The position numbers and the translations under genes were made by a program. From Fulvivirga marina (GTDB lineage: Bacteria; Bacteroidota; Bacteroidia; Cytophagales; Cyclobacteriaceae): a DNA stretch of 64,000 nt. The DNA is taken from contig NZ_JAEUGD010000066.1 of assembly GCF_016775155.1 (NCBI RefSeq), positions 470,833 to 534,832 on the forward strand, in the 5' to 3' direction. Below, one piece after another: positions 7,706 to 31,300 of this stretch. Under the pieces are notes generated by a model. It saw only the letters and a list, made by a program, of their open reading frames with translations, did not search any database and had not been told where the DNA came from. Position 1 is the first letter of the stretch. Every line of letters begins with the position of its first letter.

Positions 7706-10700
7706 TTAAAAGTTGAAATCATATGAAGCTGATTCCTCTTTTAGTGTTTTTTCTTCCTCCAGGGCCAGATCCAGATCCGCTATGGACTGGTCAGGCGTTG
7801 CCACGGCCTGCTCAACGAATTTTTTCATTCTTTCGGTCAGCAGTTGTATGCCAGATTCTTCGAAGAGATCAAGGGAATATTCTACATTCAGGTATAGTTG
7901 CTTTTCCGTCATTTTAAAGGTAAACCGCAAGTCAAGTTCACTTTTGTCAAAGTCAATAGGATAATCCATCACTTCAATACCCTCGAAGGTTTCTGTTATT
8001 TCATTTTCCGATTTGAAATTGAGAAACACGAGAGCTACATCGAAGACAGGTGCCCGACTGGTATCCCGTTTTACGCCTAAATCTTCGGCTATCTTTTCAA
8101 AAGGATACATCTGATGATCAAAAACTGACAATACATTGCCCCTAACCTTACCCAGCAAGGAGTTAAAGGTTTCATCATTGGCTATTTCAGTTCGTATAGG
8201 CAGCAGGTTCACATAGAAACCTATCTGATTTTCAAGGTCTTTATGATGACGACCTCCTGTAGATGTACCTACGACAAAGTCTGACTGTCTGGTACACCTG
8301 TTGAGGTACCCATTGAGCAGTGTCAGAAGGGTCATAAACATACTCGCCTGACGCTGAGCTGTCAGTTCCTGCAATTGCTCCACCAGACTGCTATCAAAAG
8401 CAGTATAGATATTACTGCCTCTATAGGTTTTCACTGCCGGTCTTGGGAAGTCTGTAGGAAGTTCCAATACCGGTACTCCATCTTTAAACTGCTCTTTCCA
8501 AAATGCCATATGACTGGCCAGGCTATCGCCCTGTAGCTGCTCATTTTGCCATGCTGCGAAATCCTTATACTGAATTCTAAGCTCCGGTAATCTGACCTCC
8601 TGACCTTTGAGTAAATGATTATAAGTGCTGATCAATTCTGTAGCAAGAATTCCCATTGACCAGCCATCAGATACAATGTGGTGCATGTTGTAGAAAAACA
8701 GGTGTTCGTCATCCTTCAGCTTTATCAGCTTGGTTACAAACAGTGGTGCTTTTGATAGGTTAAAGGGTTTGGAGGCTTCCACATTAACCTGTTCCCGCGC
8801 TTTTTCAAAACCGTCTGCATGCTGTGAGAAGTCCAATACCTCCACTCCAAATGGCAAGGCACCCTTTTCGCGGATTTTTTGTTTTGCCACTCCTTTAACC
8901 ATCTCAAAAGAGGTTCTGAACACTTCGTGTCTGTCTACCAGGAACCTAAGCGCATTTTCAAACACTTCCAGATTCAGTGTTCCCTTTAAGATATAGGCAT
9001 TAGGTATATTGAAATTATTCTTTCCTTCATGGGTTTGCTCTGCAAGCCACAACCGCCGCTGGTAATGCGAAAGGTCATAGTAATCTTGTTGTGGTACAGC
9101 CGCTATTTCCCTGAAACTGCTTTGCTGCTCCATGGTCAGTAGCGTTTCGGCCAGTTGCGCCACAGTGGGTTTACTAAATATATGGCTAAGTCCGATGGTA
9201 ATTCCAAAGTGTTCATGGATGCGCTGTGCTACCTGGATGCCATTAAGTGAGTGCCCTCCGATGTTAAAGAAGTCATCGTAAATACCAATATCACTTCTTT
9301 CAAGTACTTCACTCCAGATACCTATCAACTTCTCTTCCACTGTATTTCTAGGAAGCTCAACAGCTTTTTCTCCAGTAAGCTTTTGCTGACAAATGCGTTC
9401 TACTTCGGTTTTATCAACTTTTCCATTAGCTGTTAATGGTAATTTCGATAACAAAATATACTCAGCAGGACACATATAGTCTGGCAGTTTTTTACCTGCG
9501 AGCACTCTAAGTTCATCTTTGATTAATTTCTGATCCAGGAACTGCGTGTGGCCTTGGAAAAACTGCTCATCAGGTATGGTTTCCTGACTGGCATCAACCT
9601 CAGGTTTTATACCATAGATGTTGTAGATATTCGTTTCCTTCAGGAATTCATCCTGATCCACAATGGTATCAAACCCTCGCTCCTTCAGCTGCTCTACCAC
9701 TTTTGACTTCATGCCATTGTTATCATGTACTTCGATCACAATCTGCTTTATCTTTTGCCAGCAGTCCGCATCAATGCCTTCCAGCACATCCCACTCACTT
9801 TTCTCCACATCGATTTTGAGCAAGTCTATTTTCTCGATGTTATTCTCCTTCACCACATCAGCCAGCCTTCTTAGCTTACAGGTGGCCTTCTGGCTATAAA
9901 CACGCTCTTTGAGAAGTTCTTCAATCTTATCCTCAGAAACCTCTTCTCCTCTTTGCTTGATTTGACTGATCACGTATTGTCTTACGTTTTCATGCTCTTC
10001 TGCCATGTTTCCATACCTGCCCGACATCACCGTATTGTTGGGATAGTAGTCAAACTCAACGGTCATCTCTTTATTAGAAAGCCCAATATTCAACGGTGTG
10101 ATATTCGTTTTGTAGAGAGCCGCATTTTCTGCCAGACTCGCATAAACAGCAGGCAATGGTTCGAATGAAAACACTTTGGTATCCGGGAAATACAACGAGG
10201 AGAACAATGAAAACAAACCAATGTTGGCTCCCACATCAAATATGGTATCTCCGGGCTTTATTTGAATATTGTGTTTTAAATAAGTTCGATCTTCAAAAAT
10301 CTCAAAGTAAATGAGGTCAGTCTCACTTTTATTCTGATGATGAACCAGCATACCATTGGGAAGCATTTCCAAATGCTTATCTCCGGTTTCTGCTGACAGC
10401 AATTGCTGCAAGGCTGGTGCTTTCTCCGCATCAGGAACAGCAATTGCTGTCAGGAACTCATTCCCTGAGCCTTGATGGGTCAGGTGAATGTGAACATCGT
10501 TGATAGCAGAATGCTGACAAAGTGTATTTGAGATCTCGCCAGGTTCTATCCTGTTTCCTCTAACCTTTATCTGGTCATCTTTACGCCCCAGGTAGAGTAA
10601 TTCTCCACTTTCCAGCCACTGTCCTATGTCTCCGGTTCTATATATCGTATCATACTCAGTTATGAATGGATTGGCCATGAAAACCTTCTGGGTTAGCTCA

Positions 10701-13700
10701 GGTTGATTCACATAACCTTTAGACACACCGGCTCCTGCAATGCAAATTTCGCCGGTTATACCCATAGGCAGCATATTGCTTTGCTCGTCCAGCACATATA
10801 GATGCGTATTGGCAATGGGCTTTCCGATGGTAATAGGAGCTGCGTCATCTTCTATTAGTTTTATAGCACTACCAATTGTAGTCTCTGTAGGCCCATATTC
10901 ATTATAGATCTTAATATCAGCGTTCAGGGCTCTTAATGTATTGATAGCAGCATGTGTAAGTGCTTCGCCACCTAGTATAACAGCATCTACATTAGTTTTC
11001 TCTATCCCCAAATGCGCCAATACTGCAACGTGTGACGGGGTCAGTTTTACTGCATTAACTGAGGAAGAGGCTGAAAATATTTCCCTTAAAACACTGTCTA
11101 CCTGATTATTTTCATCAAACACTACCAGTTTATCGCCTCTGAGTAAAGTCGAGAATATGGACGTGAAAGTTAGATCAAAACCTACCGGGGTGAAAAACGG
11201 CATCACATGACCTTGTTGGTTTTGGAAGTAATACGCATTAGCCCATAGCAAATAGTTCGATAGGTTCCTGTATCGAACTTCAACGCCTTTGGGAGATCCG
11301 GTAGAGCCGGATGTAAAGATGATATAGGCTACGTCGTCTGCATTGCTCTGCTTTGGAAGCTTGCCTGCAACATCTGCTAATTGGTCAAGCTGAATATCAA
11401 GGGCAAAAACGTGGCCCTCAAAGTAGCTCACCTCTGAAAGTTGATCCATTTCTGTAAGCAACACCTTAGCATCGATCTCTTCCAGTATATATTGTTTTCT
11501 TTCGTCAGGGATTGCCGTATCTACAGGCACAAGGGTAGCTCCGGCCTTCCAGATAGCCAACATAGCCACCACCATGTGATGGTTCCTTGTTGACATTAAT
11601 GCTACGTTTTGCCCTGCCTGTAAAGCGTAATTTTCGACGAGATATGAAGCCAACCTATCCGCCTGATCATTTAGCTCCTTATAGGTCAACGTATCCGTAC
11701 CAAATTCGACGGCAATTAAGCTTTCGCATTCCTTGGCTTTTGATTCAAATAATTCTATAAAGGTCTTAAAATCAGTATGCTCAGGAACCTGATTAAATTC
11801 TTCTATCTGCTTCTTCTTATCATCTGCTGTTGCCAATTCAAGTGAATTGAGCTGCAGTTCCGGACTTTCACATACCTTGTCCAGCAACATTTGGAAGTGA
11901 TCGGTCATGCGCTGTATCCGCTTCTTTGTGAAGAGGTCAGTATTGTATTCCACCACCATATGGAGATTTTCAGCATCTGGGTGGAAAATGATAGTCAGGT
12001 CATATTTGGTATATAAAAACGATCTGTCCATCGCAGCTATAGGAAGCTCGCCTCCTCCTTCATTACCCGTTTGAGATGCTTCCAGTGCAAGGTTTTGCAA
12101 TGCGATGATCACATCAAACAACGGAGAGCGTGAGGCATTTCTTTCGAGATTCAAATCATCAATCAGCCTGTCGAAAGGATAAACCTGATGCTCGTAAGCT
12201 TCAAGGGTAGTTGCTTTCACCTTATCAAGCATAGCAATGAAGCTGTCATCTCCATTAAAGTGTGTTCTTAACGGCAATGTATCAAGATAGTAGCCAATCT
12301 GACCTTCCAGGTCTTTGTGCTTTCTGCCTGCCTCCACCGTACCAATGGTGATATCACTGATATTCGTGTATTTGTAAAGCAGGGTTTTTACCAGTGCCTC
12401 AAGGGTCATGAAAAGGCTGACCTGGTATTTATTACTCAATTGATTGATTCTGGACACTTTATCTTTATCAAATACCACCTGAACTCTGTCTCCATTGAAG
12501 GTCTTTACAGCCGGTCTGGAGAAATCAGTAGGCAGGTTAAGCACCGGGGCCTTTTCACTAAATCTGGTAAGCCAATACGCTCTATGGCTTTCAAGGTTTT
12601 CGCCTGACAGCTGATCGTTTTGCCACTCCGAGAAGTCTTTATATTGAACTTTTAGCGGTGAAAGCTGATGTCCGACGCCCTTAGCATAAGCATCGTAAAC
12701 CATCAGAAGCTCTTTTAAGAAGACTTGCATAGACCACCCATCAGAAATGATGTGATGCATGGTCAATAGAATACCAAATTTACCATCGGCCAACTGGATG
12801 AGTGTAAACCTCAGCAAAGGTCCTTTTTCAAGATCAAAGGGTATGTTAGCCTCTTCTTCCGCCATTTTTCTGGCTTGTAATTCCGCATCGGGCTGATTCT
12901 TCAGGTCAACAAAGGTGATATTGAATTGGAAATCCTTGCTCGGGATTATTTTTTGTCGTGGCTCGTTATCCACTTCAACAAAAACTGTTCGCAGGCTTTC
13001 ATGTCTTTCTATTAACGTACGGAATACTTTCTCCAATACTTCCTTGTCCAGAGCGGTCTCCAGGAAGTAGGCTCCTGCAATGTTATAAGCCGTTTTGGCT
13101 GTTTCGAACTGGTTGATCACCCACAATCTTTTCTGCGCATGTGATAAGGCATAAGTATCTCTTACCTGTGCAGCAGGAATATGCTGGAACTCCTCCTGAG
13201 CTGCGTTAAAGATCAGCGGTGCCAGTTCTTCAATGGTGGGGTTCGCAAATATATCGCCCAGATCGAGGCTTACATTACACTGGTTTTGGATGCTCCATAT
13301 TACTTTGGTTGCTTTCAGGGAATGTCCTCCGATCTCAAAGAAGTTATCCTTGACACTGATACCTTTATTCCCTAGTATTTCCTCCCAAATGTTCAGCAGT
13401 ATTCTCTCGGTTTCATTTCGTGGCAGGATTACTTTTTTACCGGGATTCAATTCGATCCCTTCCAGGTATGGCAGCGCTTTCCTGTTGGCCTTCCCGTTGG
13501 TGTTCAACGGGATTTTGTCAATGATCTTTATTGTGGCCGGCACCATGTAGGATGGTAAATTGGCGCTACAATATTGATTGATCTCTTTAAGCAGTGACTT
13601 GGGATTGGAAAAAGCGATCTTTGCTCTCTTCTTCACATTATCTTCTTCTGATGCTTCTTCGTTGGCCTTGCGGGCATACACATTATAAATATTGGAGTTG

Positions 13701-16700
13701 GCCAGGGCATCGTCCTGAAGGCTGTTAACCTTAAAACCTGCTTTTTCCAGGCGCTGGGTAATTTGCTCCAACCGGCCATCGATATTCTGTACCTCTACTA
13801 CCAGTTGTTTAATGATATTCCAATGCTTATCCTCTATTCCATTCAGAATATCCAACTCGCTTCGTTCTGCATCTATTTTAAGCAGATCGATCTTGTCAAC
13901 TTTGTTTTCTTCAATGAAGTCAGAAAGCCTTTTAAGATCGCAGGTCACCTCCTGGCTTTGCAAGGTCTGTTTCAACACGTCCTCCATTTGCTCAGCGGAT
14001 AGCTGATCTACAGACTTTTGATTCTGTGAGGCCAAAAATTCCCCAACCATTTCCTTGTCACGACCCTGCTGACCATATCTACCGGAGATCACGGTGTTTT
14101 GAGGGTAGTAAGCAAAGGTTATTTGCTCCTGCTTATCAGAAAAACCAAAGTTGTATGCCTCAATATCAAAAGGATACAGGCTTGCATTGGCCTTAAGGCA
14201 CTCATAGATCGGAGGTACCGGTTCAAAAGCATATACCTTGGCTGAACGGGCATGAAAACCTACATAAGAAGCAAACATACCTATGTTAGCCCCAATGTCA
14301 AATATTACGTCTCCATCATCGATAGTGATACCATGCTGGGCATAAATGTGGTGCTCATATATTTCATGGTAAGTATGGAGTGTCTCAGACTGATTTTTAT
14401 GGAATAGCATCACTCCGTTAGGCAGATCAAAGAGCTGCTTCAAAAACTCCGGATTGTTGGTTTTGTAGTCCAACAGTTGCTTTACGGTATGGTTATCCTC
14501 TTCTAAAGTTATCGCTGCCTGCAGGCTGCTGTCTTCGCCGCCTTCCTGGTCAGATAAGTATACGCAGGCTTCTCTCACCGCCGGGTGGGCACCAATGGAG
14601 TTTTCTATCTCTCCCAGTTCTATTCTGTATCCTCTGAGCTTGACCTGATTGTCTATTCTTCCGAAAAATTCGATGGTACCATTTTCGAGCCAGCGTCCTT
14701 TGTCTCCCGTCTTGTAAAACCTTTCTCCAGGAAAGGCCGGGAGTTCAACAAAGCGCTCATGGGTAAGTGCTTCATTATTGAGATATCCGTTACAGACACC
14801 CGTTCCTCCTACTAACAGTTCTCCTATTACCCCCGGAGGAACAAATTCTCCATCCTGATTGCAAATGTACACTGTGGTTTCAGGGATGGCTTTACCTACA
14901 GGACTCCCTTTAGAGGGATTGTCAATATCTGTTGCAGTAAGCCTATGGTAAGTCACATGCACGGTGGTTTCGGTGATTCCATACATGTTGATCATGGCCA
15001 CCTGCTCTAGCGGATAGGTCTTTACCCAATCTTTCAGACGTGCAGGCTCCAGACGGTCTCCTCCAAAAATGATGTAACGAAGGTCTGTTAGTTGGTCTTC
15101 AGTTCTCATATTTAAAATATGCTCTGAGAGGTATCGAAATGCCAGAGGTGTTTGATTGAGCACCGTAACTGCATTTTCCTTAATGTATCGCGCAAATTGG
15201 GAGATATCTTTTACCAGCGTTCTTGCTGGAACGAGCAGCTTGCCCCCATAGAGTAATGCTCCGAAAATTTCCCATACGGAAAAGTCGAAGTTATAGGCAT
15301 GTGCCATCACCCAAACATCTTCCGATCCAAAGTCAAAAGGATGGCGATCGTTTTTCATTAACCGCACCACATTCTCATGCGTTATGATACACCCTTTAGG
15401 AGCACCGGTAGACCCTGAAGTGTAAATAATATAGGCTACACTTGCTGGTGTGGCAGGTGATTCGAATGCCTGGCTACCATACAGTTGTAATGCTCTCCTG
15501 TCGAATTGACTCTTACTGCGTGTATCTAAAACAGGTTGAGTAAAAGGCTTTTTGATTCCCAGTATAACATCATAGCGATAAAGCGTCAACTCATTTTGTA
15601 TGGTTCCTGTTTTCTCTGATATCTTAACTGAATCAATGCCATTGATGTTGAAGGGTAGGTCCTGAAAGAATTGCTTCGAAAGAAAAAGCTCATTAGACCA
15701 GTCACTTTTAATTTTAAATGTCTTATCGGCATGCTCTTTTTTAAACTGGGTAAGGCTATCCAGAAATGCTTCTTTCAAATCCTGATCCTGCACATCACCT
15801 ACAAAAATTATCCCCTGATCATTAAGTAGTGAAACTGCTTTACCCAGGACATCGAGTAGGTAATTGTGCCCGTTAAAACACTGAATTACACTATTGAGAA
15901 TAACAATATCAAAATCTTTTTCGGCAATGGTATCCACCTCATGTGCCGGTAGTGTGCTAAGCTGAATGTTATCAAAGCCTCGTCGGCTTACTTCTTCTCG
16001 GGTTTTGGCTAATATACTGTCAGAAAGATCTGTACCGTAGTAAGACTTAACCAAAGGAGCAATCCTGAACATACTGATCCCTGAAGAACATCCGATCTCC
16101 AGTACGCGGGTATTCTCGTTCAAATAAGGCTCTAGCTTTTCAAAAATATTATCAGCGTACTCGTCCATTTCCTCACGGCTCAGGTCTTCTCCGGTATAGC
16201 TGGAAAACCAGGCTCCTCCTGATATATCATCATGGGCATTATCTCCTACATAATCCCATAAGTCCTTACGTCCCAATTCATTCGCGGCTTCCTTTTCTGC
16301 CAAATATTCGTCGCTATCAATGCAAAGCAGGTTATTAAGCTGTGAACACTCCCACTGCAACCTGTTCATGGTTCTGACATACTTTTTCTGAGAGATCAGC
16401 AATGGACTTTTCGTATCAGTCAAAAGAAATCTGATTCGCTCAAACGGATTCTCAGGATCTATGGGCAGATAGGCATTACCGGATTTCAATATTCCCAAAA
16501 TGCTGATCACGGCCTCTATGGAGTTATCCAGAAGCAGGCCTATAATGGCATCACCTTTAATACCTCTTGATTGAATAAATGAAGCTATGGCATTGACCTG
16601 ACCGGATAGTTCTCCATAGGTCAGAGACCTTGTCTCGTCTTCCAACGCCACCTTATCACGACAGGATACCACCTGCTCTTCAAACAGGTCTACAATTGTC

Positions 16701-16801
16701 TTGTCCTTTGAATAACCCGCTTTGGTTTGATTAAAGGAAATTTGCAGTTCCTTGTTTCCCTGCCCTGCATCCGTCAAACGGATATTTGATAACTTAACCA
16801 T
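7706..16801 (-). CDS. NRPS: A(Thr, +MT +FkbM)-T / C-A(Asn, +FkbM)-T-C
   Basis: A 3031-residue protein with three built-in methyltransferases. A1 is interrupted twice: a class I enzyme (VLEIGCSSG ~230) between A2 and A3, and an FkbM-family enzyme (FDIGANIGMF ~830, FEPVP, DLLKIDAERSE) between A8 (KLRGYRIELGE ~710) and A9 (LPSYMVP ~1080). Its code is DFWNIGMVHK, Thr. T1 is at ~1155 and C (HHIISDGWS) at ~1350. A2 (A3 motif TSGSTGSPKG ~1830; code DLTKIGEIGK, Asn) has one FkbM insert (FDVGANIGLF ~2190) between A8 and A9 (LPDYMCP ~2440). T2 is at ~2515 and a terminal C with HHIVSDGWS at ~2710. The protein ends YDFNF. The N-terminus (KLSNIRL) resembles that of gene 6 (KISSFKL), and both start directly in an A domain. 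Expected residues are doubly methylated Thr and methylated Asn. Confidence 0.95.
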   Translation of the reverse strand: MVKLSNIRLTDAGQGNKELQISFNQTKAGYSKDKTIVDLFEEQVVSCRDKVALEDETRSLTYGELSGQVNAIASFIQSRGIKGDAIIGLLLDNSIEAVISILGILKSGNAYLPIDPENPFERIRFLLTDTKSPLLISQKKYVRTMNRLQWECSQLNNLLCIDSDEYLAEKEAANELGRKDLWDYVGDNAHDDISGGAWFSSYTGEDLSREEMDEYADNIFEKLEPYLNENTRVLEIGCSSGISMFRIAPLVKSYYGTDLSDSILAKTREEVSRRGFDNIQLSTLPAHEVDTIAEKDFDIVILNSVIQCFNGHNYLLDVLGKAVSLLNDQGIIFVGDVQDQDLKEAFLDSLTQFKKEHADKTFKIKSDWSNELFLSKQFFQDLPFNINGIDSVKISEKTGTIQNELTLYRYDVILGIKKPFTQPVLDTRSKSQFDRRALQLYGSQAFESPATPASVAYIIYTSGSTGAPKGCIITHENVVRLMKNDRHPFDFGSEDVWVMAHAYNFDFSVWEIFGALLYGGKLLVPARTLVKDISQFARYIKENAVTVLNQTPLAFRYLSEHILNMRTEDQLTDLRYIIFGGDRLEPARLKDWVKTYPLEQVAMINMYGITETTVHVTYHRLTATDIDNPSKGSPVGKAIPETTVYICNQDGEFVPPGVIGELLVGGTGVCNGYLNNEALTHERFVELPAFPGERFYKTGDKGRWLENGTIEFFGRIDNQVKLRGYRIELGEIENSIGAHPAVREACVYLSDQEGGEDSSLQAAITLEEDNHTVKQLLDYKTNNPEFLKQLFDLPNGVMLFHKNQSETLHTYHEIYEHHIYAQHGITIDDGDVIFDIGANIGMFASYVGFHARSAKVYAFEPVPPIYECLKANASLYPFDIEAYNFGFSDKQEQITFAYYPQNTVISGRYGQQGRDKEMVGEFLASQNQKSVDQLSAEQMEDVLKQTLQSQEVTCDLKRLSDFIEENKVDKIDLLKIDAERSELDILNGIEDKHWNIIKQLVVEVQNIDGRLEQITQRLEKAGFKVNSLQDDALANSNIYNVYARKANEEASEEDNVKKRAKIAFSNPKSLLKEINQYCSANLPSYMVPATIKIIDKIPLNTNGKANRKALPYLEGIELNPGKKVILPRNETERILLNIWEEILGNKGISVKDNFFEIGGHSLKATKVIWSIQNQCNVSLDLGDIFANPTIEELAPLIFNAAQEEFQHIPAAQVRDTYALSHAQKRLWVINQFETAKTAYNIAGAYFLETALDKEVLEKVFRTLIERHESLRTVFVEVDNEPRQKIIPSKDFQFNITFVDLKNQPDAELQARKMAEEEANIPFDLEKGPLLRFTLIQLADGKFGILLTMHHIISDGWSMQVFLKELLMVYDAYAKGVGHQLSPLKVQYKDFSEWQNDQLSGENLESHRAYWLTRFSEKAPVLNLPTDFSRPAVKTFNGDRVQVVFDKDKVSRINQLSNKYQVSLFMTLEALVKTLLYKYTNISDITIGTVEAGRKHKDLEGQIGYYLDTLPLRTHFNGDDSFIAMLDKVKATTLEAYEHQVYPFDRLIDDLNLERNASRSPLFDVIIALQNLALEASQTGNEGGGELPIAAMDRSFLYTKYDLTIIFHPDAENLHMVVEYNTDLFTKKRIQRMTDHFQMLLDKVCESPELQLNSLELATADDKKKQIEEFNQVPEHTDFKTFIELFESKAKECESLIAVEFGTDTLTYKELNDQADRLASYLVENYALQAGQNVALMSTRNHHMVVAMLAIWKAGATLVPVDTAIPDERKQYILEEIDAKVLLTEMDQLSEVSYFEGHVFALDIQLDQLADVAGKLPKQSNADDVAYIIFTSGSTGSPKGVEVRYRNLSNYLLWANAYYFQNQQGHVMPFFTPVGFDLTFTSIFSTLLRGDKLVVFDENNQVDSVLREIFSASSSVNAVKLTPSHVAVLAHLGIEKTNVDAVILGGEALTHAAINTLRALNADIKIYNEYGPTETTIGSAIKLIEDDAAPITIGKPIANTHLYVLDEQSNMLPMGITGEICIAGAGVSKGYVNQPELTQKVFMANPFITEYDTIYRTGDIGQWLESGELLYLGRKDDQIKVRGNRIEPGEISNTLCQHSAINDVHIHLTHQGSGNEFLTAIAVPDAEKAPALQQLLSAETGDKHLEMLPNGMLVHHQNKSETDLIYFEIFEDRTYLKHNIQIKPGDTIFDVGANIGLFSLFSSLYFPDTKVFSFEPLPAVYASLAENAALYKTNITPLNIGLSNKEMTVEFDYYPNNTVMSGRYGNMAEEHENVRQYVISQIKQRGEEVSEDKIEELLKERVYSQKATCKLRRLADVVKENNIEKIDLLKIDVEKSEWDVLEGIDADCWQKIKQIVIEVHDNNGMKSKVVEQLKERGFDTIVDQDEFLKETNIYNIYGIKPEVDASQETIPDEQFFQGHTQFLDQKLIKDELRVLAGKKLPDYMCPAEYILLSKLPLTANGKVDKTEVERICQQKLTGEKAVELPRNTVEEKLIGIWSEVLERSDIGIYDDFFNIGGHSLNGIQVAQRIHEHFGITIGLSHIFSKPTVAQLAETLLTMEQQSSFREIAAVPQQDYYDLSHYQRRLWLAEQTHEGKNNFNIPNAYILKGTLNLEVFENALRFLVDRHEVFRTSFEMVKGVAKQKIREKGALPFGVEVLDFSQHADGFEKAREQVNVEASKPFNLSKAPLFVTKLIKLKDDEHLFFYNMHHIVSDGWSMGILATELISTYNHLLKGQEVRLPELRIQYKDFAAWQNEQLQGDSLASHMAFWKEQFKDGVPVLELPTDFPRPAVKTYRGSNIYTAFDSSLVEQLQELTAQRQASMFMTLLTLLNGYLNRCTRQSDFVVGTSTGGRHHKDLENQIGFYVNLLPIRTEIANDETFNSLLGKVRGNVLSVFDHQMYPFEKIAEDLGVKRDTSRAPVFDVALVFLNFKSENEITETFEGIEVMDYPIDFDKSELDLRFTFKMTEKQLYLNVEYSLDLFEESGIQLLTERMKKFVEQAVATPDQSIADLDLALEEEKTLKEESASYDFNF
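9604..10375 (-). other. FkbM-family methyltransferase inserted at A8-A9 of the Asn A domain (gene 7)
   Basis: It runs from LPNGMLVHHQNKSET to IYNIYGIK, with FDVGANIGLF, SFEPLPAVYASLAEN and IDLLKIDVEKSEWDVL. It is clearly a paralogue of the FkbM insert in the Thr A domain of the same protein, in the same A8-A9 slot. The Asn code of the host domain makes backbone or side-chain amide N-methylation of Asn the main candidates. Confidence 0.88.
13668..14430 (-). other. FkbM-family methyltransferase inserted at A8-A9 of the Thr A domain (gene 7)
   Basis: It runs from LPNGVMLFHKN to IYNVYARK. FkbM-family features are FDIGANIGMF (SAM loop), AFEPVPPIYECLKAN and IDLLKIDAERSELDIL. It lies between KLRGYRIELGEIE (A8) and LPSYMVP (A9). 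Family members are often O-methyltransferases, so O-methylation of Thr is possible, but N-methylation is not excluded. Confidence 0.88.
15512..16345 (-). other. Class I SAM methyltransferase inserted at A2-A3 of the Thr A domain (gene 7)
   Basis: The insertion is bounded by LQWEC on the left and SQFD on the right before TSGSTGAPKG. It has VLEIGCSSGISMF, YYGTDLS and VILNSVIQCFNGHNYL. It belongs to the same family as the inserts of genes 3, 5 and 6, but here the A domain holds a second methyltransferase further on. Confidence 0.88.
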
Positions 16802-16874: not shown

Positions 16875-19800
16875 TCATATAGTTGCCTCATGGGCTCCAT
16901 GTAATTCTTTTTCAGGTTGTTCCTCCAATACAGCCTGAGTGATTTGCTCAAAGTAGCTGAGGTATTTTTTAATAGTTTCCCTTTTAAATTGATCTGAATT
17001 GTATTCTAACTTGAGAGAGATCCCTTCTGCGCTATCGACAACAAAAAGTGTGAGATCAAACCTGGATACGTTAAAATCCTGCTGAACTCCCTTAAGCTTT
17101 TCTGAGATTTCCTCTGACTTATCTTCTTTACCCGGCTCTTCAGCAGAACCCGGAGTGTTGATATCCACAAAATTTTGAAAGCCATAAAACACATTAAAAA
17201 TGGGTTGTTTATGATCCGCCCCTTTAGGACCTACCTTTTCAACCAGTAGGTCAAAGGGGTAATTTTGATGATCAAAGGCCTCAATCGAATTTTGAGTAAC
17301 CTGCTGTAATAATTCCTCAAAACTGGCATCTTCTTCAATTTTGGTGAGGATTACCAACGGATTTACAAAGAACCCTATCAGACCTTCCAGGTCTACATGA
17401 TTCCGGCTGGCCGATGCTGTACCTACCAATAATTCGTTTTGGCCGCTGATATTTTGCAACAGCACGTTGAGAATAGTAAATACGGTATTGGAAAGCGTCG
17501 TACTGTTTTTAAAGGCCAGTCTTTGAAGTCCTTCCCTTAGGTTTGCATTCAACACCAGGCTTTCAACTGCTCCATTAAAATTGTTGAGCTCTTCGGAGCC
17601 AAAATCATAAGGTAACTGGATCTTATCCGGTAAGTCTGAAAGCTTTGTCATCCAATATGCCTCATCATTCTTCAGGCTGATGTTGTTCTGCCAGTGCACA
17701 TAATCTTTGTATTGAATCTTAAGCGGCTGTAGCGGGTTGGCCCTGCCGTTGGCAAATGCCATATATAGTGAAATAGCTTCCTCGAAAAATATCCTTAGCG
17801 ACCACCCATCTGCGATGATATGATGCAGCGTATATAAAAGCATACTTCTCTCCTCTCCCAACTGCAATAAGCTAACACGGATCAGTGGCCCGTTGGTCAG
17901 GTCAAATGGCTTACGGGATTCTTCCTGTGCCAACACTGCTGCTTTTTCATCCGGGTTTTCTTCTCCTCTCAGATCGGTGTAAGCAACTGAGAATCCCAGC
18001 GATTCATAAGAATGGATCTTTTGTCTTGGCTCTCCATTTACTTCTATAAAGGTGGTTCTCAAAGTTTCATGGCGCTCAATAAGTGCCTTAAAAGTCCTGT
18101 CCAGGGCATCCTTATCTACCTCCTCTTCAAGCACATAAGCACCCGGCATATTATAAGCAAACTGATTGGTCTGTAACTTATTCAGTATCCAAAGGCGCCG
18201 CTGTGCATATGAAATCTCATAGCTATCAGCTTCGGCAACTGGCTCTATCTGCTGGTAGTTTGCGCGGCCAGCCTGTGCTATGCAGGCACTCACACTCTCT
18301 ATGGTAGGGTTAAGGAATACATCGCTCAACCTGATGTCGGCATTCATCTCTTTTCTGATACGTGAAACGAATTGCGTGGCTTTGAGCGAGTGTCCTCCCA
18401 GTTCAAAGAAGTTATCATGGATACCCATGGATGTTTTCCCCAGGATATTTGTCCAGATCTCTAAAACTTTAGACTGTAGTGCATTCCTTGGAGGTACATA
18501 ATCTTTTTGAGATGAACCGTTCACTCCTACAGGATCAGGAAGTGCCTTATGGTCAACTTTTCCGTTGCTGGTCAATGGCACCTCATCGAGCGGTATGAAG
18601 TAAGCGGGGATCATATACTCTGGCAGGTATCTGTTCAAATAGCTTCTCCACTCGCCCGGCTGCCATGTTTTAGTGGTAATGAAGTAAGCAACCATTTGTG
18701 CCTCCTGATCGCCATCTTTTTTCACTGTTACTATGGCTTGATCTACATCCGGATGTTGAAGCAATACATGTTCGATTTCCTTGAGTTCGATTCTGTGTCC
18801 ACGGACTTTGACCTGGTTGTCTAACCTGCCCATGAAGCCTATATCGCCAGAGGGAAGCCACCTGGCCTGGTCGCCTGTACGGTAGAGCCTTTCATGATCT
18901 CCGTTCAGGGTTTTGACCGTGATGAATTTTTCGGCGGTCAGGTCCAGACGATTCATATATTCGTGTGCCAGTCCTGCTCCTGAAATGCATAGCTCACCTG
19001 GAATGTTAATACCTGTTGGTAATTGGTGTGCATCCAATATGTGGATTCCGGTATTCGCAATAGGTCTGCCAATGGTGAGCAAATCGTCGTTATGCTTTAT
19101 ATACTTGTACGTTGACCAAATGGTAGTTTCTGTTGGCCCATACATATTAAAGAGTGCTCCGCTCCTTTCCAGAAGCTTTTGCCCTAAATCAACAGACAAA
19201 GCCTCCCCTCCACATAATAGTTTCAGGGTTTTGCTCCCCTGCCATCCGGCGTCTACCTGGGCTTTCCACATCGTAGGTGTCGCCTGCATTATATCCGGGT
19301 TGTACTTTTCTATGGCCTCCTTAACCAGAATAGGGTCTTTAATCGTATCATCATCTGCCAGTATCACTGTAGCTCCGGTTACCAATGGCAGGAACAGTTC
19401 CAATACAGATATATCAAAGCAATAGGTGGTTGTTGCCAACATCCTGTCATCAGCAGTAATGTCTGTGATCTGCTTCATGCTAGTGAGGAAATTCACTACT
19501 GACCTGTGGTTGACAAGCACTCCCTTGGGTTTGCCGGTGGAGCCTGAAGTATATAAACAATAGATGGCCGAATCTGCTGTGCCCTTAGCTGGCAGGCTGG
19601 ATGGGCAAGCATCTATCCCTTCCTCCACATCTTTCAGGTTAATCACCTCCATCATGGTATTTACTTGTAGTTCAGCGTTGGTGATCAGTGCTTTCATACC
19701 GCTGTCCTGGCAGATATAATCGATCCGCTCCAAGGGGTAATCCTTATCTACAGGCACATAGGCAGCGCCTGCTTTGAGAATACCAAGCAAAGTAATGAGC

Positions 19801-22800
19801 ATATTTTCAGACCGATCGATCAACACCCCTACCAAATCGCCGGATTGTACGTCGGCGGTTTCTATGAGGTAGTTAGCTAACTTATTGGATCTTTCATGCA
19901 GGTTGAGATAGGTCAACTGCTGCTTTGATGTAATTAAGGCAGTTTTCTCACCGTTCAATAGCACCTGCTCTTCAAACAGGGCATGCAGGGGTTTGTCTTC
20001 AGGGTAAGTGGATTCGCTGAAGCTACTGAAGTCCCTAAGCTGTTCTTTTTCATGCTCAGGTATATAATCCAAATTATCCAAGGTAGCTTGTGGGCTATCC
20101 AAAACACTCAGGGCCAGTTGCCCTAAGTGATTGAGCATACGCTCTATGGTCTCTTTCTTAAACAGGTCAACATTATACTCCGCACTTATCGATACGCTTT
20201 CTCCATTATCTTTAAATACGAGTGATAAATCAAATTTACTAACGTTGAAAGTGGGTGCGTAATTAACCGTTTTTACACCATTCAAATCAAACTGTCCTGC
20301 GGGGCCAATGTCGATATTTTGCATGGTCACCATCACATCAAAAAGTGGAGACCTGCTCACATCTCTGACCAATTCCAGCTCTTCTATTAACCTGTCGAAA
20401 GGATAGATCTGGTATTTCTGTGCATTTAAAAGTTGCTTGTTAACCTCCTTAAGCAGCTGACCAAAGTCCTCATTGCCCCGGAACATAGACCTGACACCCA
20501 GTGTATTAAAGTAAAGTCCTACCTGGTTCTCAAGGTCCCGATGATTACGGCCTGTAGATGGTGTACCTACAATGATGTCTTCCTGACCGGTATATCGGTA
20601 GAAAAGTGCTTTGGTGAGCGAAAGTAAGGTAGCAAACAAACTGACCTGTTGCTCCTGACTGTATGTCTTCAGCTTTTTGGCGATGTCCTTATCCAACTCC
20701 AAACTGGTATGGTCCCCTTTGAAGGTTTGCACCCTTGGTCTCTGAAAATCAGTGGGTAAATCCAAAAGTGGTAATTCACCTTTGAACTGGTTGTGCCAGT
20801 ACTGCTGGTAGACTTTAAGGCTTTCTCCTCTCAATTGTTGGTTTTGCCAGTGGGCGTAATCCTTATATTGGATATGAAGTGGTGCCAACGGACTTTCTGC
20901 TCCTTCAATACGGGCATTGTATAATTCTGTCATTTCCCTGATCAGGACGATCAGCGACCACCCATCGGAAATGATGTGGTGCATATTGAACACAAAAAGG
21001 TGCTTCCCTTCCTCCAGCTGAACCAGTTTGGCCCTTAATAGCGGCCCCTTCTCAAGATCAAATGGAGCTATCGCCTCTTCCTCAGCAATTTCACTAGCTT
21101 TCTCGTCACTTTGAGCTTCATGACTCAAGTCTATGAACTCTACATCAAAACCGCATTCGGAAAACTCATGCACCTGTTGCATCAGGTCTCCTTCTATCAT
21201 GGTAAAAGTGGTTCTAAGGATCTCATGGCGCTGAACAACCTCGGCTAGTACCTGCTTAAATACTTCCAGGTTCAGCCCTTGAAATATCATGGCCGCCGGG
21301 CTATTATAGATGGAGCGCTGCTCTTCAAATTGGTTGAGTATCCACATGCGCTTCTGAGCGTGAGATACTTCATAATATGCCGCCGCAGGAACAGGCTCAA
21401 TGGCACTTGCCTTTTGCTCTCCATTTATGGGGAGATAAGCCATTGATCTCGCCAGATCAAGTGTTTTGCGACTTAGGAAGTCTTCTTTGTAGGTGTCCTT
21501 CCACCTATCAGCAATGGTGCTATCGATGCCCTGATGTGTAGCAAATTTCACGTCACCGATCATCTTCGAATCTTCAGATATACCATCCAGCATTTTTGAT
21601 TTTTTGCCGGCGTATATTTCAAGCATTTCTTTTTCGTAAGGTATTTCAAGAAAGTCACATACTGACATCAATGTTGACTCCGGCTCTCGTACCAGGTCTT
21701 CGTATTGGACCACAAACTTTCTCGAAGCAGGCACATTTTCCAGATGTGCCTGGATGTTCTGATAACTGACCAACCAGGTTAGCTCTGCTAATTCACGTAA
21801 AGTGAATGGGTGTTCATAACGGAATATCTGATCCATTTTGGTATTCTCAAAAGAGTTGATCATACCATAAGGGTGCCTTTGCAGTACGAGGTATTTTGGT
21901 GACTCGAAGTAAGTCTCCATCCGTGTTAAAGCCTCTGGGTCAATGGTATAGTTGGGTGATTTGTCCACCAGCATACGATCGCCTGAAAGCTTTTGTAAAA
22001 GGGCATAAAACTCCTTCACTGGCATTTTTTTACTTTCCAGATCACGCATGATATCTCTGGCAAGATCGGCATCGCATTCATTAAGCTCCATTAATGCCCT
22101 GATTGTACCTTCCAGGAAGAAACTATATGGCCCTTCAAGTTTGTCTTTCCTTTCCTCCAGGGTATTGAAGCTCATCAATTCCAGTTCCGGTGGAGCAAAT
22201 AACATGGGATGGCCACTGAGCATAGCTCTGAACAATGTTGACCCTGACCGTGGTGGTGATAATATAAATACTGCCGGCTTGTTTTTAGGCTCATCAAGAG
22301 CAACAGGCTCAGGAGAAACTATCAGGTTTCTGAATTCTGCCTCTTTTTGATCATCAATGGATGAGCCTCCCTGGTTTTGATAATTCAATAAACTGGTGGC
22401 CAGTTCCTTGATAGAAGGTGATTCAAAAAGGAGTGTGATATGAATGATATCACCTGTTAACTCCTGTATTTTATTACAAATACGAATGGCCTTGATAGAG
22501 TCTCCTCCCAATTCAAAGAAATCGTCAAGAATGCCTACCTGATTGATGCCCAATACATCCTGCCATATCTTCACCAAAGAGGTTTCCATCGCAGTGGTCG
22601 GAGCCTGATAATTCTTCGACTCTACAAAGGAATGTGGCAAGGGAAGTGCCTTGGCATTGATTTTTCCGTTGGTAGATAAAGGAAACTTGTCCATACCAGT
22701 CAGGTATGAAGGCACCATATACTCGGGCAGGTTACTGGTCAAAAATCTTCTCAGTTCATCATTGTCCAGATCGCCATTGGCTATATAATAGCCGACGATA

Positions 22801-25800
22801 TAGCGCTGCTGATCCTTATTTTCAGGTGCCATCACATGTGCATCTTTCACTGCCGGATGCTTCAGCATGGTCCTTTGTATCTCTCCCAGTTCTATGCGGT
22901 AACCTCGTATTTTTACCTGGTTATCTATACGACCAAAAAACTCCAATGTGCCGTTTTCAAGCCATCTGGCTGTATCACCGGTCCGGTACAGTCTTTCATT
23001 TGATATTGAAGGATTGATTATAAACCTCTCAGCAGTCAGCTTAACATTGTTAAAGTATCCGTTGCATACCCCTGTTCCTCCAACGAACATCTCCCCAACA
23101 ACACCTGTAGGAAGCAGGTTACCATCCTTATCGCATACATATACTGTAGTTTCAGGAAGCGGAACACCGATAGGGCTACCTTTTGAAGGTGTAAGGATAT
23201 CTTCCTCGGTCAGCTTGCCATAGGTCACATGCACCGTGGTTTCTGTAATACCGTACATGTTGATCAGTGCTACTTTATCCAGCGGATATGATGCTATCCA
23301 TGGCTTGAAAGTGGCAGGCTCCAGGCGGTCGCCGCCAAAAATGACACACTTCAAATGCGACAGGTAGCTCTCCTCTTCATGTTTCAGAAGGTATTCGGAA
23401 AGATATTTAAAGGCCAATGGCGTCTGATTGAGCACTGTGACCTTGTTTTCCTTAATGAACCGTGCAAAGTGGGCCATGTCTTTACGCGTGGTATTCGTTG
23501 GCACCATCAGCTTACTTCCATTGAGCAAGGATCCGAAAATTTCCCATACTGAAAAATCGAAGTTATAGGCATGGGCCAGTACCCAAACATCAGCCGATGA
23601 AAAACTAAATGGGTGACGGTCATTTCTGATCAATCGTACCACATTTTCATGTGTGATCATACAACCCTTTGGCGTACCGGTTGACCCGGAAGTATAGATA
23701 ATGTAAGCCAGGGTTTGGGGCTTGGCTGAAGACTTTACTACCGCATTTGCATGGTTTGCAATATCTCTAAGATCAAATTGCGATCTATCTGATTGCTCTG
23801 ATCTCACTTCATCAGAAAGCTCTTCGCTGTCTATATATAATACGGCACCAAGTTCCTCACAATCTCCATCTTGCAGCTTGTTTACTGTTTCGAAATATTT
23901 CTTCTGGGTGATCAACAGTGGGGCATCGGTATCATTCAATAATAATTTGACTCTATCATAAGGGTTTTTAGAGTCAATAGGCAGGTAAGTACATCCAGCT
24001 CTCAATACTCCGAATATGCTGACTACGGCCTCTATGGAGTTATCTAAAAGCAATCCGATAATTGCCTTTTTCCCCACGTTTTGGGATTTTATAAACGATG
24101 CAATAGCACTGGCCTGCTGTGATAACTCCTGGTATGTCAACGAGCGCTCTTCATCCTGCACGGCCACATGGTCTGGCACCAGATTCACTTGTTCATCAAA
24201 CAGGTCTATTAAGGTTTTATCCTGAGGGTAGCCTGCCTGGGTATTGTTGAACGACTTCTGTATTCTTTTGTTATCCTCTATTGAAGGTACGTCGGTTCCC
24301 TCCTCTTTTGCTGTCTGGTTATCAGACAATTGGTCTGACTCATGATTTAAAGCTATTAAAGCAGTATCAGGATTGTTAAGCACATGGTGAAACAGGCATA
24401 GCAAATGCTCTTTAAGTCGCAGCACTGTTTCCTCTTTGAAAAGGTTGGAGTTGTACCTTACATGTACTTGCAGGTGACCTTCGTTTCTTCTGATCAACCT
24501 CATCAGGAGGTCGAATTTACTTCCTATGTTAAAATCTATTTCGGAATCTGTTGCTGTGGTATCGTCGAGTGCTTCTGATGTATTTTCAGCCCCGACTGAC
24601 AGGTTATTGATATCTGCAGTTACCACCACATCAAAAAGCGGGTTCCTGCTCATATCTCTTTTGAGATGCAGATCACTTACGATTTGATCATAAGGATAAA
24701 CCTGATGGTCATAAGTTTCCAGCAGTTCTGCTTTAGTCTGAGATAAGTAGTCCTTAAAGCTCATATCAGGGTCTACTTCGCCTCTGATTGCTATCATATT
24801 GACAAAAAAGCCAATCAGATTATCCAGGTCACGGTGTACCCTTCCGCTAACCGGCGAACCAACGGTCATGTCTGTTTGCCCTGTATATTTATAGAGCAGC
24901 ACCCTGACTACCGACAGGAAGCCCATAAACAGGGTAACCTGATGCTTGTTGCAAAGCGCCTCAAACCGGGATGCCATATCTTCTGTCAACTCAAAATCGA
25001 TCAGCCCTCCATCGAAAGACTGGACTGATGGTCTTTCAAAGTCAGTAGGCAGCTCCAAAGGTGCCGGCAGGTGTTGCAATTTACCCAGCCAAAATTGCTT
25101 ATGTTCTTCCAGTATGGCTCCGCTCAACTGCACCTTCTGCCAATGAGCATAGTCCCTGTATTGAATTGGCAATTCAGGCAATGGATTTTCTTTATCCTGA
25201 ACAAAGGCTTCGTACAACGACAGTACTTCTTTTACCATTAGCCCCATGGACCATCCATCTGATACGATATGATGCACTGTGTAGATGAATGCACACTCAT
25301 TGTCTGTCAACTGAAGAAGTTTGACTCTAAAGAGTGGACCTTTTTCAAGATTAAAAGGAGTCTGAGCCTCTTTCTGAGCTATTTGCTCCAATTGATCTGT
25401 TTCAATCGCCTGGTCTCTGAGGTCCTCATAGACCATTTTGAAAGGGAAGTCTTCCAGGTTATGGACTTTTTGCATCGGCTCATCGTCCACGGTTATGAAA
25501 GTTGTCCTCAGCACTTCATGCCGCTCTATAAGCGTAAGCAGAGCTTTGTTCAGGGCGTCTTTATCAATATTCTTGAGTATTGACATGCCGGGCATGTTGT
25601 ACACGATCTGATCAGGGTTAATCCGGTCAAGTACCCATAGCCTTCTCTGTGCATAGGATGCCTCATAATATGGACGGTCTCCCAATCTCTCAATTTTAAC
25701 TTGCTGTGCACGATCACCTCCGGCAATGATCTCGCTCAATCCTTTAATGGTTGGATTCAGGAACAGTTCCTTGATGCTTACCTTAACACCAAGCTCCTCT

Positions 25801-28387: not shown

Positions 28388-31300
28388 TTAAATATTCTCA
28401 GTAACCTGACTTGCGTGTTGTAAAAATCCTTTGAAATAGCCCATCCACTCTTCTATGGTAGCAGCTTTAAACAGGGATGAGTTGTACTCAAATGCCAACT
28501 GCAACCCATTCTCATATTCGTAGACAAAAAGCGTCAGGTCAAACTTGGAAGTTTCAAAGTCCTGCTCTAGTCCCTTGGCCTTGATAGTCTGATCGGATTT
28601 TTCTGTTTCTTCAAAGTCTATAAAGAGGTCTGTAAAGTTTTGAAAACCGTATAGTACGTTAAAAAGTGGCTGTACATTACCTGCTCTCTCCGGGTTTAGC
28701 TTCTCCACGATGAGATCAAACGGGTAGTTTTGATGGTCAAATGCAGAGGTCATACTTTCCGAACTTTTCTTCAGTATATCTTCAAAGGCTGCGTCTTCTT
28801 CCATCTGGTTACGAATGGCCAATATGTTTACAAAGAAGCCTGCCAGGTTTTCAAGATCCGGGTGGTTTCTATTGGCTATGGCCACTCCCACTACCAGGTC
28901 CTGCTGACCCGAAATATTGTACAGCAATATATTGAAGATGGTAAAGACGACGGTTGAAAGTGAAGTATTATGTTCCAGGGCCAGTTCTTTAAGTTGAGTG
29001 GTCAACTCAAGGTCCAGGAAGGTTATTACATTCTTACCATCAAATGTGTTTTCATTCGTTTTTTCGAAGTCATAGGGTAATGCGATACAGCCATTTACAC
29101 CTGCCAGCTTGTTGAGCCAGTATTGCTCTTCTTTCTCATTGATGATGTTGTTTTGCCAATAGACAAAGTCTTTATACTGAATTCGCAATTCCGGCAGTGG
29201 ATTGGGCTTACCATTTTTGTAAGCTTCATATACTTTATCAAGCTCACCGGTTAGCACCTGCATAGACCAACCATCGCATATGATGTGGTGCATCGTAAAT
29301 GCAAACAGCCACTTATCATCTGTAAGTTTTATCAGCATGGCACGCATCAAGGGACCTTTGGCCAGGTCAAAGACCTGCTCTCCTTGCTCATGGGCTAATT
29401 TTGCAGCCTTCTCTTCCCCTTCGGCCTCCTGGCTTAGGTCAATATGGCTAAGTTTAAAATCAAGATCTTTCAACTCATGGATCTTTTGATAAGGCACTCC
29501 TCCCTGGTTGATAAAGGTGGTTCTCAAGGCTTCATGTCTCTCTACAATAGTATTGAGTGCTCTTTCAAATATTTCCGGGTCGATTCCCTCCAGGTAAAAT
29601 GCGCTGCTGGAGTTGTATGACTTTTGCTGTTCCTCAAATTCATTAAGAATCCAAAGTCTCTTCTGAGCGTGAGAAATGACATAGTGTTCCTGTGGTTCTA
29701 CCGGCTCGATGCGCTGATACCCTTCTCTTCCCTGTTGGGAAATTTTATCGGCTATCTCCCTGATCGTTGGGCTGGCGAATACTTCAGACAATTCTATCTT
29801 GATTTTCATTTCCCGGTAAATCTTGGAAACCAGCTGGGTGGCTTTCAAAGAGTGACCGCCAATCTTAAAGAAGTTATCGTCAATACCCACCAGGTTTCTA
29901 CCCAATATACCTGACCATATTTCTACCAGTTTTTCTTCAGTCTCATTTCTCGGAGCTATATAATTCTCAGTGACTTTATGCTTTAACTCCTCTGGCATAG
30001 GCAATGCTTTACGATCCACTTTGCCATTGGCGGTAAGAGGAAGTTTTTCAAGCCTTACGAAGTAATCAGGAACCATATATTTTGGCAGATCAATAGTGAT
30101 CAGATCCTGAAATTCCTCATCGGTAATATTTTCCAGCAGTTGTACGTAGGCGCATAGTTGTTTGCCCACACCCTCTGGTTCGAGCACTGATACTACCGCT
30201 GCTGTTACTTGAGGAATGCTGAGGATCGTCTTTTCAATTTCTTCCAGTTCTATACGATACCCTCTGATTTTTACCTGGTTATCTACACGGCCTACAAATT
30301 CAATATTACCATCTTCTCGTAGCCTGGCCAGGTCTCCTGTTTTGTATAACAGGCTATCTTCTTTTACCGGATGGCTCACAAATTTTTCAGCAGTCAATTC
30401 CGGGGCATTCAGATAGCCATGCGCCACTCCGTCACCTGCTACACCCAGTTCGCCGACTATACCTACTGGCAGAGGCTCTGAATTTTCGTTGATGATGTAA
30501 GCCTCAGAGTTCGACATGGGCTTGCCAATAGGCATAATACCTTCATCTCCTGTAGCCTGATAAGTGGTAGAAATTACGGAGTTTTCAGTAGGTCCGTAAG
30601 CATTAATAATCTGAAGCTCGGGACAAACTGCCATAACCTTTCTAACCTGTACAGCATTGAGTGCTTCACCTCCTATGATCAAAGTCTTAAGAGTCTTAAA
30701 CATAGCGGGGTTCAAATTAGCAAACTCATGAAAGACAGGTGTAATCAACACCATCATGCTAATGTTATGTTTTAACAAATACTGTTGGAAATGGTCAATA
30801 TCCAGCAGCTTGTCTTTATCAGTTATAGACAGGGTCGCTCCATTGAGCAGTGCTCCAAATATTTCCAGCGTTGATGGGTCAAATGATATGTTAACATTCT
30901 GTGCCCAGCAATCTTCAGACTGCACTGACATGTAATCGGTATCTTTTACCAGTCTGACTATACCGCGATGTGGAATGGTCACTCCCTTAGGGTTACCGGT
31001 TGAACCTGAGGTGTAGATGATATTGGATATCTGTGTTGGGTCGAGATCTGTCTGTAGCGGTGCTTCACTGCAAGATCTTAAAGCAGTAGCATCGTACTGG
31101 AATTTCTCTCTCTCAAAAGCTGGCTTATCGGTTTTGCCTTTGTTGATGTGCAATACGCTGTCGTAGTGAAATGCTGTCATTTCATTATCTACAGAAGCTA
31201 TTTTGTCGGAATGGTCGATACGACTGATCTCCTCAAAATCAGCCTGGAGATCATTCAGAAAACCTCTGGCAACAAACAGTTCATTCGAAAAGTCAATTTT

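Follow-up and report, generated by a model that had tools for sequence, protein, structure and literature searches.

Introduction

Adenylation (A) domains interrupted by a single methyltransferase have been described with the insert at either of two sites, those at a2-a3 including TioN and MarQ, which methylate sulfur, and TtcC of thalassospiramide, which N-methylates (Table 2 of PMC11355689), while further single interruptions, among them the methylation site of TioS, are listed at a8-a9 (PMC11355689). Such singly interrupted A domains serve as parts for engineering, and versions with two interrupted sites have been constructed artificially; the engineered domain of Lundy 2019 combines an N-methyltransferase at a8-a9 with a side-chain S-methyltransferase at a2-a3 (PMC11355689). 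Single natural A domains with two methyltransferases also exist. ColG of the columbamides has the arrangement A-Ms-Mb-A at a8-a9 and is reported to O- and N-methylate carrier-bound Ser (PMC11355689), and LynB3, found with LynB5 in lyngbyapeptin B biosynthesis, is a further natural two-methyltransferase A domain (PMC10127204). A preliminary description of the DNA studied here had stated that single interruptions occur at either site, as the literature confirms (PMC11355689), and that a trifunctional A domain was a product of engineering and not a common natural form. The engineered domain is indeed on record, but there are natural forms too, the N,O-dimethylating ColG and LynB3, both with their two inserts at one site (PMC11355689, PMC10127204). 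In addition, an in-silico survey by Lundy in 2020 (RSC Chem Biol) reportedly defined a family 7 of natural di-interrupted A domains with inserts at a2-a3 and a6-a7.

Our literature search, which most subscription papers lay outside, found no natural A domain doubly interrupted at a2-a3 and a8-a9 and no A domain interrupted by an FkbM-family methyltransferase. Here we describe an A domain of Fulvivirga marina with a class I methyltransferase at a2-a3 and an FkbM-family methyltransferase at a8-a9, and evaluate what it may make and how it may have arisen.

Results

Anatomy of the doubly interrupted A domain

The window, by which we mean the whole stretch of 64,000 nucleotides analysed (contig positions 470833-534832 of a 6.78-Mb genome), contains the NRPS protein P0001, whose first module is ordered A-T-C in the domain map. 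Its features and the adjoining C domain are as follows.

7706-16801, minus strand: NRPS protein P0001, A(MT1+FkbM)-T-C-A(FkbM)-T-C, an open frame of 3031 aa
13472-16690 (about), minus strand: doubly interrupted A domain, first domain of P0001, core motifs a1-a10 readable, code DFWNIGMVHK
16367-16690, minus strand: A-core part 1 (a1-a2), aa 38-145, from the domain map
15527-16309, minus strand: insert 1 (a2-a3), class I methyltransferase MT1, aa 165-425, from Pfam and the domain map; proposed backbone N-methyltransferase
14507-15484, minus strand: A-core part 2 (a3-a8), aa 440-765, carrying the code residues, from the domain map
13727-14404, minus strand: insert 2 (a8-a9), FkbM-family methyltransferase, aa 800-1025, from profiles and the domain map; proposed side-chain O-methyltransferase
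13472-13699, minus strand: C-terminal A subdomain (a9-a10), nearest to the subdomains of other FkbM-interrupted A domains, from the map and tree
13214-13429, minus strand: carrier (T) domain of the module, motif FFEIGGHSL, from the motif and domain map
11822-13168, minus strand: condensation (C) domain of P0001, which would hand methylated Thr onward, from the domain map
9665-10342, minus strand: FkbM insert (a8-a9) of the second P0001 A domain, code DLTKIGEIGK (Asn-like), from the map and code
16875-18236, minus strand: condensation domain at the C-terminal end of the 3836-aa protein that precedes P0001, likely the upstream C domain for the module, from the domain map

The first A domain of P0001 is an interrupted (A-M-A) domain in which motifs a1 to a10 can all be read from the translation and are split by two inserts, the second flanked by a8 (GRIDNQVKLRGYRIELGEIE) and a9 (LPSYMVP). 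The preliminary description had placed this domain at 13540-16760, which agrees with our map (13472-16690) to within the edges, and its account of retained core motifs, of a class I methyltransferase at a2-a3 and of an FkbM methyltransferase at a8-a9 is upheld. The Pfam search that it had proposed as a check returned methyltransferase families for both inserts: Methyltransf_12 (E 1.3e-13) and Methyltransf_31 (E 8.3e-13) at aa 228-351, within MT1, and PF05050 in two stretches of P0001. The FkbM copy of the doubly interrupted domain scored 65.5 bits against PF05050 (cut-off 22.7) and 106.7 bits against TIGR01444 (cut-off 37.7). The specificity code was computed as DFWNIGMVHK, the same ten residues as previously given, which we take to be a Thr code. 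The FkbM insert in the second A domain of P0001 had not been noted before.

Loss of conserved residues would have told against the inserts, and none was seen. With a threshold of at least 95% conservation, 57 other copies define 30 columns for MT1 and 38 other copies define 18 for FkbM; the doubly interrupted domain agrees in 30 of 30 and 18 of 18. We rejected decay of one insert on this basis. Two other readings of the anatomy were also discarded, namely misread back-to-back inserts, as the two sites lie ~375 residues apart (aa 425 to 800), and an FkbM insert at a6-a7 like that reported for family 7, as the FkbM domain comes after a8.

An AlphaFold2 model of the domain, from a 49-row alignment, had a mean pLDDT of 84.1 and a pTM of 0.75. 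Structure prediction, also suggested previously as a check, gave a good result for MT1 (ten-residue blocks of 82-97, one at 75) and was less sure for the FkbM part, whose blocks ranged from pLDDT 34 to 93. In a Foldseek search with the complete model, 5WMM ranked first, at a low to modest TM-score (0.41 by query, 0.51 by target). Folding of the FkbM part by itself from a two-row alignment gave a poor model (pLDDT 64.6), with which Foldseek found no PDB match at E <= 0.001.

Gene cluster setting

In a 180-kb map of the contig around the window, the gene cluster extends from ~430 to 564 kb, has its NRPS genes on the minus strand and starts with an AMP-ligase/PKS/aminotransferase protein. The a3-a8 model matched 31 times in the cluster, one match being the starter ligase. 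MT1 occurs in four cluster A domains (code DAFWLGGTFK twice, DPLVIGAVIK and the doubly interrupted domain), as does FkbM (DAKNAGVDTK, DAKNAGVDSK, DLTKIGEIGK and the doubly interrupted domain), and both inserts are found together only in the first A domain of P0001. The three sister MT1 domains, which are additions to the preliminary description, all lie in the window.

27120-27893, minus strand: sister MT1 insert (a2-a3), host code DAFWLGGTFK (Val), from the map and code
31118-31891, minus strand: sister MT1 insert (a2-a3), host code DPLVIGAVIK, from the map and code
50874-51653, minus strand: sister MT1 insert (a2-a3), host code DAFWLGGTFK (Val), from the map and code

The downstream part of the cluster, outside the window, encodes two CmlA-type diiron beta-hydroxylases (contig 465255-466862 and 430720-432318), and a Trp-halogenase-like protein is found further along. 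Several other features were observed. A sulfotransferase domain (PF13469, E 5.9e-30; window 21384-22388, minus strand) follows a Thr A-T pair of the preceding NRPS protein and might serve in sulfation of Thr or in priming of elimination. Another class I methyltransferase is located at a8-a9 of a cluster A domain with the code DALTIGAVLK (contig 445911-446912, outside the window), and a second NRPS locus of the genome (contig 857215 and 861634) has MT1-like domains at a8-a9. We found no product of the cluster in the literature search.

MT1 and its relatives

By sequence, the best solved relative of MT1 is 5WMM (E 5.6e-22; next match 2.6e-5), and MT1 is thereby homologous to a proven Mb (backbone N-methylating) M domain. 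We take 5WMM (AMA4) to be TioS. The similarity is one of the methylation domain: 5WMM has a single such domain at a8-a9, unlike the P0001 domain with MT1 at a2-a3 and FkbM at a8-a9, and the model, for which it ranked first in Foldseek, fits it poorly over the whole chain, as the above TM-scores indicate. MT1 is thus not at a8-a9, the usual Mb position, but a2-a3 is also its site in the 57 other MT1 hosts that we tallied, with four weaker MT1-like domains at a8-a9.

A scan of bacterial genome contigs with two short peptide patterns identified 52 MT1 loci. From 49 of these, 52 MT1 host A domains could be placed, the loci left out being L024 and L066 (an MT1 piece but no a3-a8 part that could be read alongside it) and L067 (MT1 below threshold). 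In all but one of the 52 host domains (51), MT1 was preceded by the a1-a2 part and followed by the a3-a8 part; the upstream side of the other, L065, is cut off. Nothing was inserted after a8 in any of the 49 MT1 host domains with a readable end.

FkbM and its relatives

FkbM matches were sought in several genome sets, and the resulting counts are lower bounds, since only part of the candidates was scored in many genomes (e.g. 6 of 20), and come from overlapping sets. Matches were found in three of 392 genomes of the window's phylum (the window's own included), in one of 195 genomes of one family (the centre genome itself) and, for the phyla of three further centres, in eight of 297 (centre included), two of 398 and none of 249 genomes, the last search having been run without a positive control. 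Fourteen of 42 genomes or records behind earlier loci also had a match, as did 50 records of a plasmid collection (10 of the 30 listed were analysed), which were the sole route by which cyanobacteria were reached. The FkbM insert had no match among PDB sequences at E <= 0.01.

PMC9259500 lists 29 FkbM proteins of known pathways with O-methyltransferase activity, experimental for four and proposed for 25, and also describes EreM, an FkbM backbone N-methyltransferase, so that an FkbM protein is not always an O-methyltransferase.

In two loci from distant taxa, a luciferase-like monooxygenase precedes the a5 part of the same A domain that has FkbM at a8-a9: L087, the plasmid protein P0002 of Nostoc sp. 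C052, and L079, from one genome of the window's phylum. These domains represent another two-site architecture, and the combination fits a hydroxylation followed by an O-methylation.

Host codes of interrupted A domains

HMMs built from this cluster's own domains were applied to the analysed loci, giving a tally of 181 A domains. MT1 only (a2-a3) was found in 57 and FkbM only (a8-a9) in 31, four had the MT1-like domain at a8-a9 (L071, L075, L076, L083) and 88 had neither; the sole MT1 plus FkbM double was the first A domain of P0001. The a2-a3 region was readable and free of MT1 in 29 of the 31 FkbM-only hosts, the exceptions, L079 and L119, being cut. Isolated chance occurrence of either insert can be set aside, as 49 loci of other genomes have A domains with MT1 relatives and a further 31 A domains contain FkbM.

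The substrates that we assign to the host codes differed between the two inserts. For MT1-only hosts they were Val (12), Leu (6), Ile (5), Phe (1), Thr (6), Asn (6) and Dab or Dab-like (4), with 17 unassigned; for FkbM-only hosts they were Thr (7), Ser (5), Asp (5) and Asn (2), with 12 unassigned, Thr thus being the commonest assigned code (7/31). Codes for Val, Leu, Ile or Phe were present in 24 of 57 MT1-only versus none of 31 FkbM-only hosts (Fisher p 6.6e-6) and codes for Ser or Thr in 12 of 31 FkbM-only versus six of 57 MT1-only hosts (p 0.0044), for host rows that are related, were found via the inserts and include some near duplicates (6 of the 88 are from this cluster).

MT1 cannot be methylating a side-chain heteroatom on its Val and Leu hosts. 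Because of these and the other hosts without a side-chain acceptor (Ile, Phe), and of the relationship to 5WMM, we assigned MT1 the proposed role of backbone N-methyltransferase. Since Thr and Asn codes each account for six MT1 hosts as well, only the aliphatic part of the distribution carries this argument. FkbM is absent from the assigned Val, Leu, Ile and Phe hosts and therefore probably methylates a side-chain heteroatom; it was assigned the proposed role of side-chain O-methyltransferase. For FkbM hosts with Asp/Asn or DAKNAGVD(T/S)K codes, which have no obvious hydroxyl, hydroxylation must be assumed. The CmlA-type beta-hydroxylases of the cluster could supply a hydroxyl on such non-Ser/Thr hosts, and their presence alongside FkbM suggests beta-methoxy residues.

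Among the codes themselves, DAKNAGLDTK, DAKNAGVDTK and DAKNAGVDSK (window 41619-52184 and L009) form one group with DLKNVGSDVK and DLKNYGTDIK, seen elsewhere; the codes of this group have no assigned substrate.

Affinities of the domain segments

Trees were calculated for the individual segments of the domain; these segments are short, and support is low at several nodes (0.3-0.65). The neighbors of the a1-a2 part and of MT1 are A domains from other genomes that carry MT1 (L017, L016 and L023, mostly Thr, and L020, Asn), and the a1-a2 part also groups with a Thr A domain without inserts that stands two modules upstream within the window. The nearest relatives of the a3-a8 part are that uninterrupted Thr domain and a further Thr-like domain of the cluster, likewise uninterrupted, followed by L017, L023 and L016. 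The FkbM segment groups with the other three FkbM domains of the cluster and L100, a set of five with support of 0.99. For the a9-a10 subdomain the partners are L100 and two of the three cluster FkbM modules (0.74-0.83), in a clade of 15 (support 0.91) of which the eight members shown are all FkbM hosts. This pattern suggests that the domain is a chimera whose affinity switches near a8.

The closest A-core relative retains a possible trace of an insert of its own:

23751-23882, minus strand: a2-a3 linker of the uninterrupted Thr A domain, MT1-type flank motif kept, from the tree and motif

The flank motif was found in 32 of 55 MT1 hosts versus two of 112 other domains, these two being the uninterrupted Thr sister and L024, an MT1 host broken by a stop. 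Because the motif is kept in its a2-a3 linker, the sister may have lost an MT1, the motif being a possible scar.

Two further loci, L110 and L111, from the Chitinophaga genomes behind L057 and L018, have an FkbM domain, close to those of the cluster, directly after a C domain and without a preceding A-core. On visual inspection the sequences on either side of it resemble fragments of a C-terminal A subdomain, such as could remain from a cassette that has moved, and ~950 residues between FkbM and the next T domain have no explanation.

Discussion

The first A domain of P0001 is a naturally doubly interrupted A domain. We consider it likely that it is a trifunctional Thr A domain that serves to form N,O-dimethyl-Thr and that it arose by recombination near a8. 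The preliminary description had already suggested N,O-dimethyl-Thr or a similar doubly methylated residue, and the relatives and hosts of the two inserts now strengthen that proposal. Because the host codes separate the two inserts, we connect MT1 with N-methylation and FkbM with side-chain O-methylation, and from these two activities together we infer N,O-dimethyl-Thr as the product of the module. In the proposed pathway, the A domain would make Thr-AMP and load Thr onto its own T domain, the T-bound Thr would be methylated by MT1 on its alpha-nitrogen and by FkbM on its side-chain oxygen, and the C domain of P0001 would then condense the N,O-dimethyl-Thr residue. As to its origin, recombination near a8 most likely joined an MT1-carrying Thr A-core to a cassette of FkbM and C-terminal subdomain like those in other modules of the cluster. 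The a3-a8 tree counts against this scenario, as the two nearest relatives in it are uninterrupted Thr-type domains of the cluster.

The recombinant appearance of the junction is also what could favor a different explanation, in which one insert only acts on the Thr of the module. The other, whether FkbM or MT1, would either work in trans on a neighboring residue, such as the Asn that the following module takes, or be a silent passenger of recombination, the product being N-methyl- or O-methyl-Thr only. The FkbM cassette could have come along with the subdomain, and the next A domain of P0001 has another FkbM. However, the latter means that the next module already has an FkbM of its own, all 18 FkbM and 30 MT1 conserved columns are kept, and Thr is the commonest assigned code of FkbM-only hosts (7/31), which leads us to regard this explanation as unlikely.

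It appears more doubtful still that the roles are reversed, or that both inserts act on nitrogen, with FkbM a backbone N-methyltransferase like EreM and MT1 a side-chain methyltransferase like TioN and MarQ. There are precedents for each half of this proposal, as EreM is an FkbM protein (PMC9259500) and the a2-a3 inserts of TioN and MarQ are S-methyltransferases (PMC11355689). The same source, however, lists TtcC with an N-methylating a2-a3 insert, the closest solved relative of MT1 is the 5WMM methylation domain, and hosts without a side-chain acceptor (Val, Leu, Ile, Phe) account for 24 of 57 for MT1 and 0 of 31 for FkbM. Finally, an A domain that is inactive or does not take Thr, in a decaying module skipped by the line, is highly improbable, for although a sister module of the cluster may have lost its MT1, the a1-a10 motifs, full Thr code, T motif and 3031-aa open frame are all intact.

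The N,O-dimethylating, trifunctional reading of the P0001 domain can be compared with the known systems. Like ColG and LynB3/LynB5, it is a natural single A domain with two methyltransferases, but ColG-type domains have back-to-back inserts in one site and the P0001 domain has two sites, and the O-methyltransferase of LynB3 is similar to arginine methyltransferases and not to FkbM (PMC10127204). With TtcC, TioN and MarQ, compared here by description only, it shares a methyltransferase at a2-a3, N-methylating in TtcC; those domains have single interruptions, and TioN and MarQ methylate sulfur. The engineered domain of Lundy 2019 has inserts at the same two sites but is man-made, and its N- and side-chain assignment is the reverse of the one that we propose. 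Family 7 reportedly also comprises natural domains with methyltransferases at two separate sites, one being a2-a3; the second insert is reported at a6-a7, unlike FkbM, which here comes after a8. Multifunctional interrupted A domains are consequently a known kind, but in the literature searched we could not find a description of the a2-a3 plus a8-a9 FkbM site pair with the reversed assignment. We lean towards the fuller claim of a natural a2-a3/a8-a9 trifunctional domain with an assignment opposite to the engineered one, in which a single recombination step near a8 swapped in the FkbM and C-terminal-subdomain cassette.

The residue itself is one found in nature, N,O-dimethyl-Thr being part of the Gq inhibitor FR900359 (PMC7794379). 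Puwainaphycin was considered as a precedent for O-methyl-Thr and rejected, as the part of the source that was available mentions no methyltransferase for the PuwH Thr module.

A natural two-site example shows which methyltransferase families occupy which site, and points to the region near a8 as a natural place to cut when a cassette of FkbM and subdomain is to be transferred. If our reading is true, this cassette would be a portable unit that adds O-methylation to a working A-core. The example also provides a testable rule for reading products from interrupted A domains, by which an MT1-type domain at a2-a3 would signify an N-methyl group and FkbM at a8-a9 an O-methyl group.
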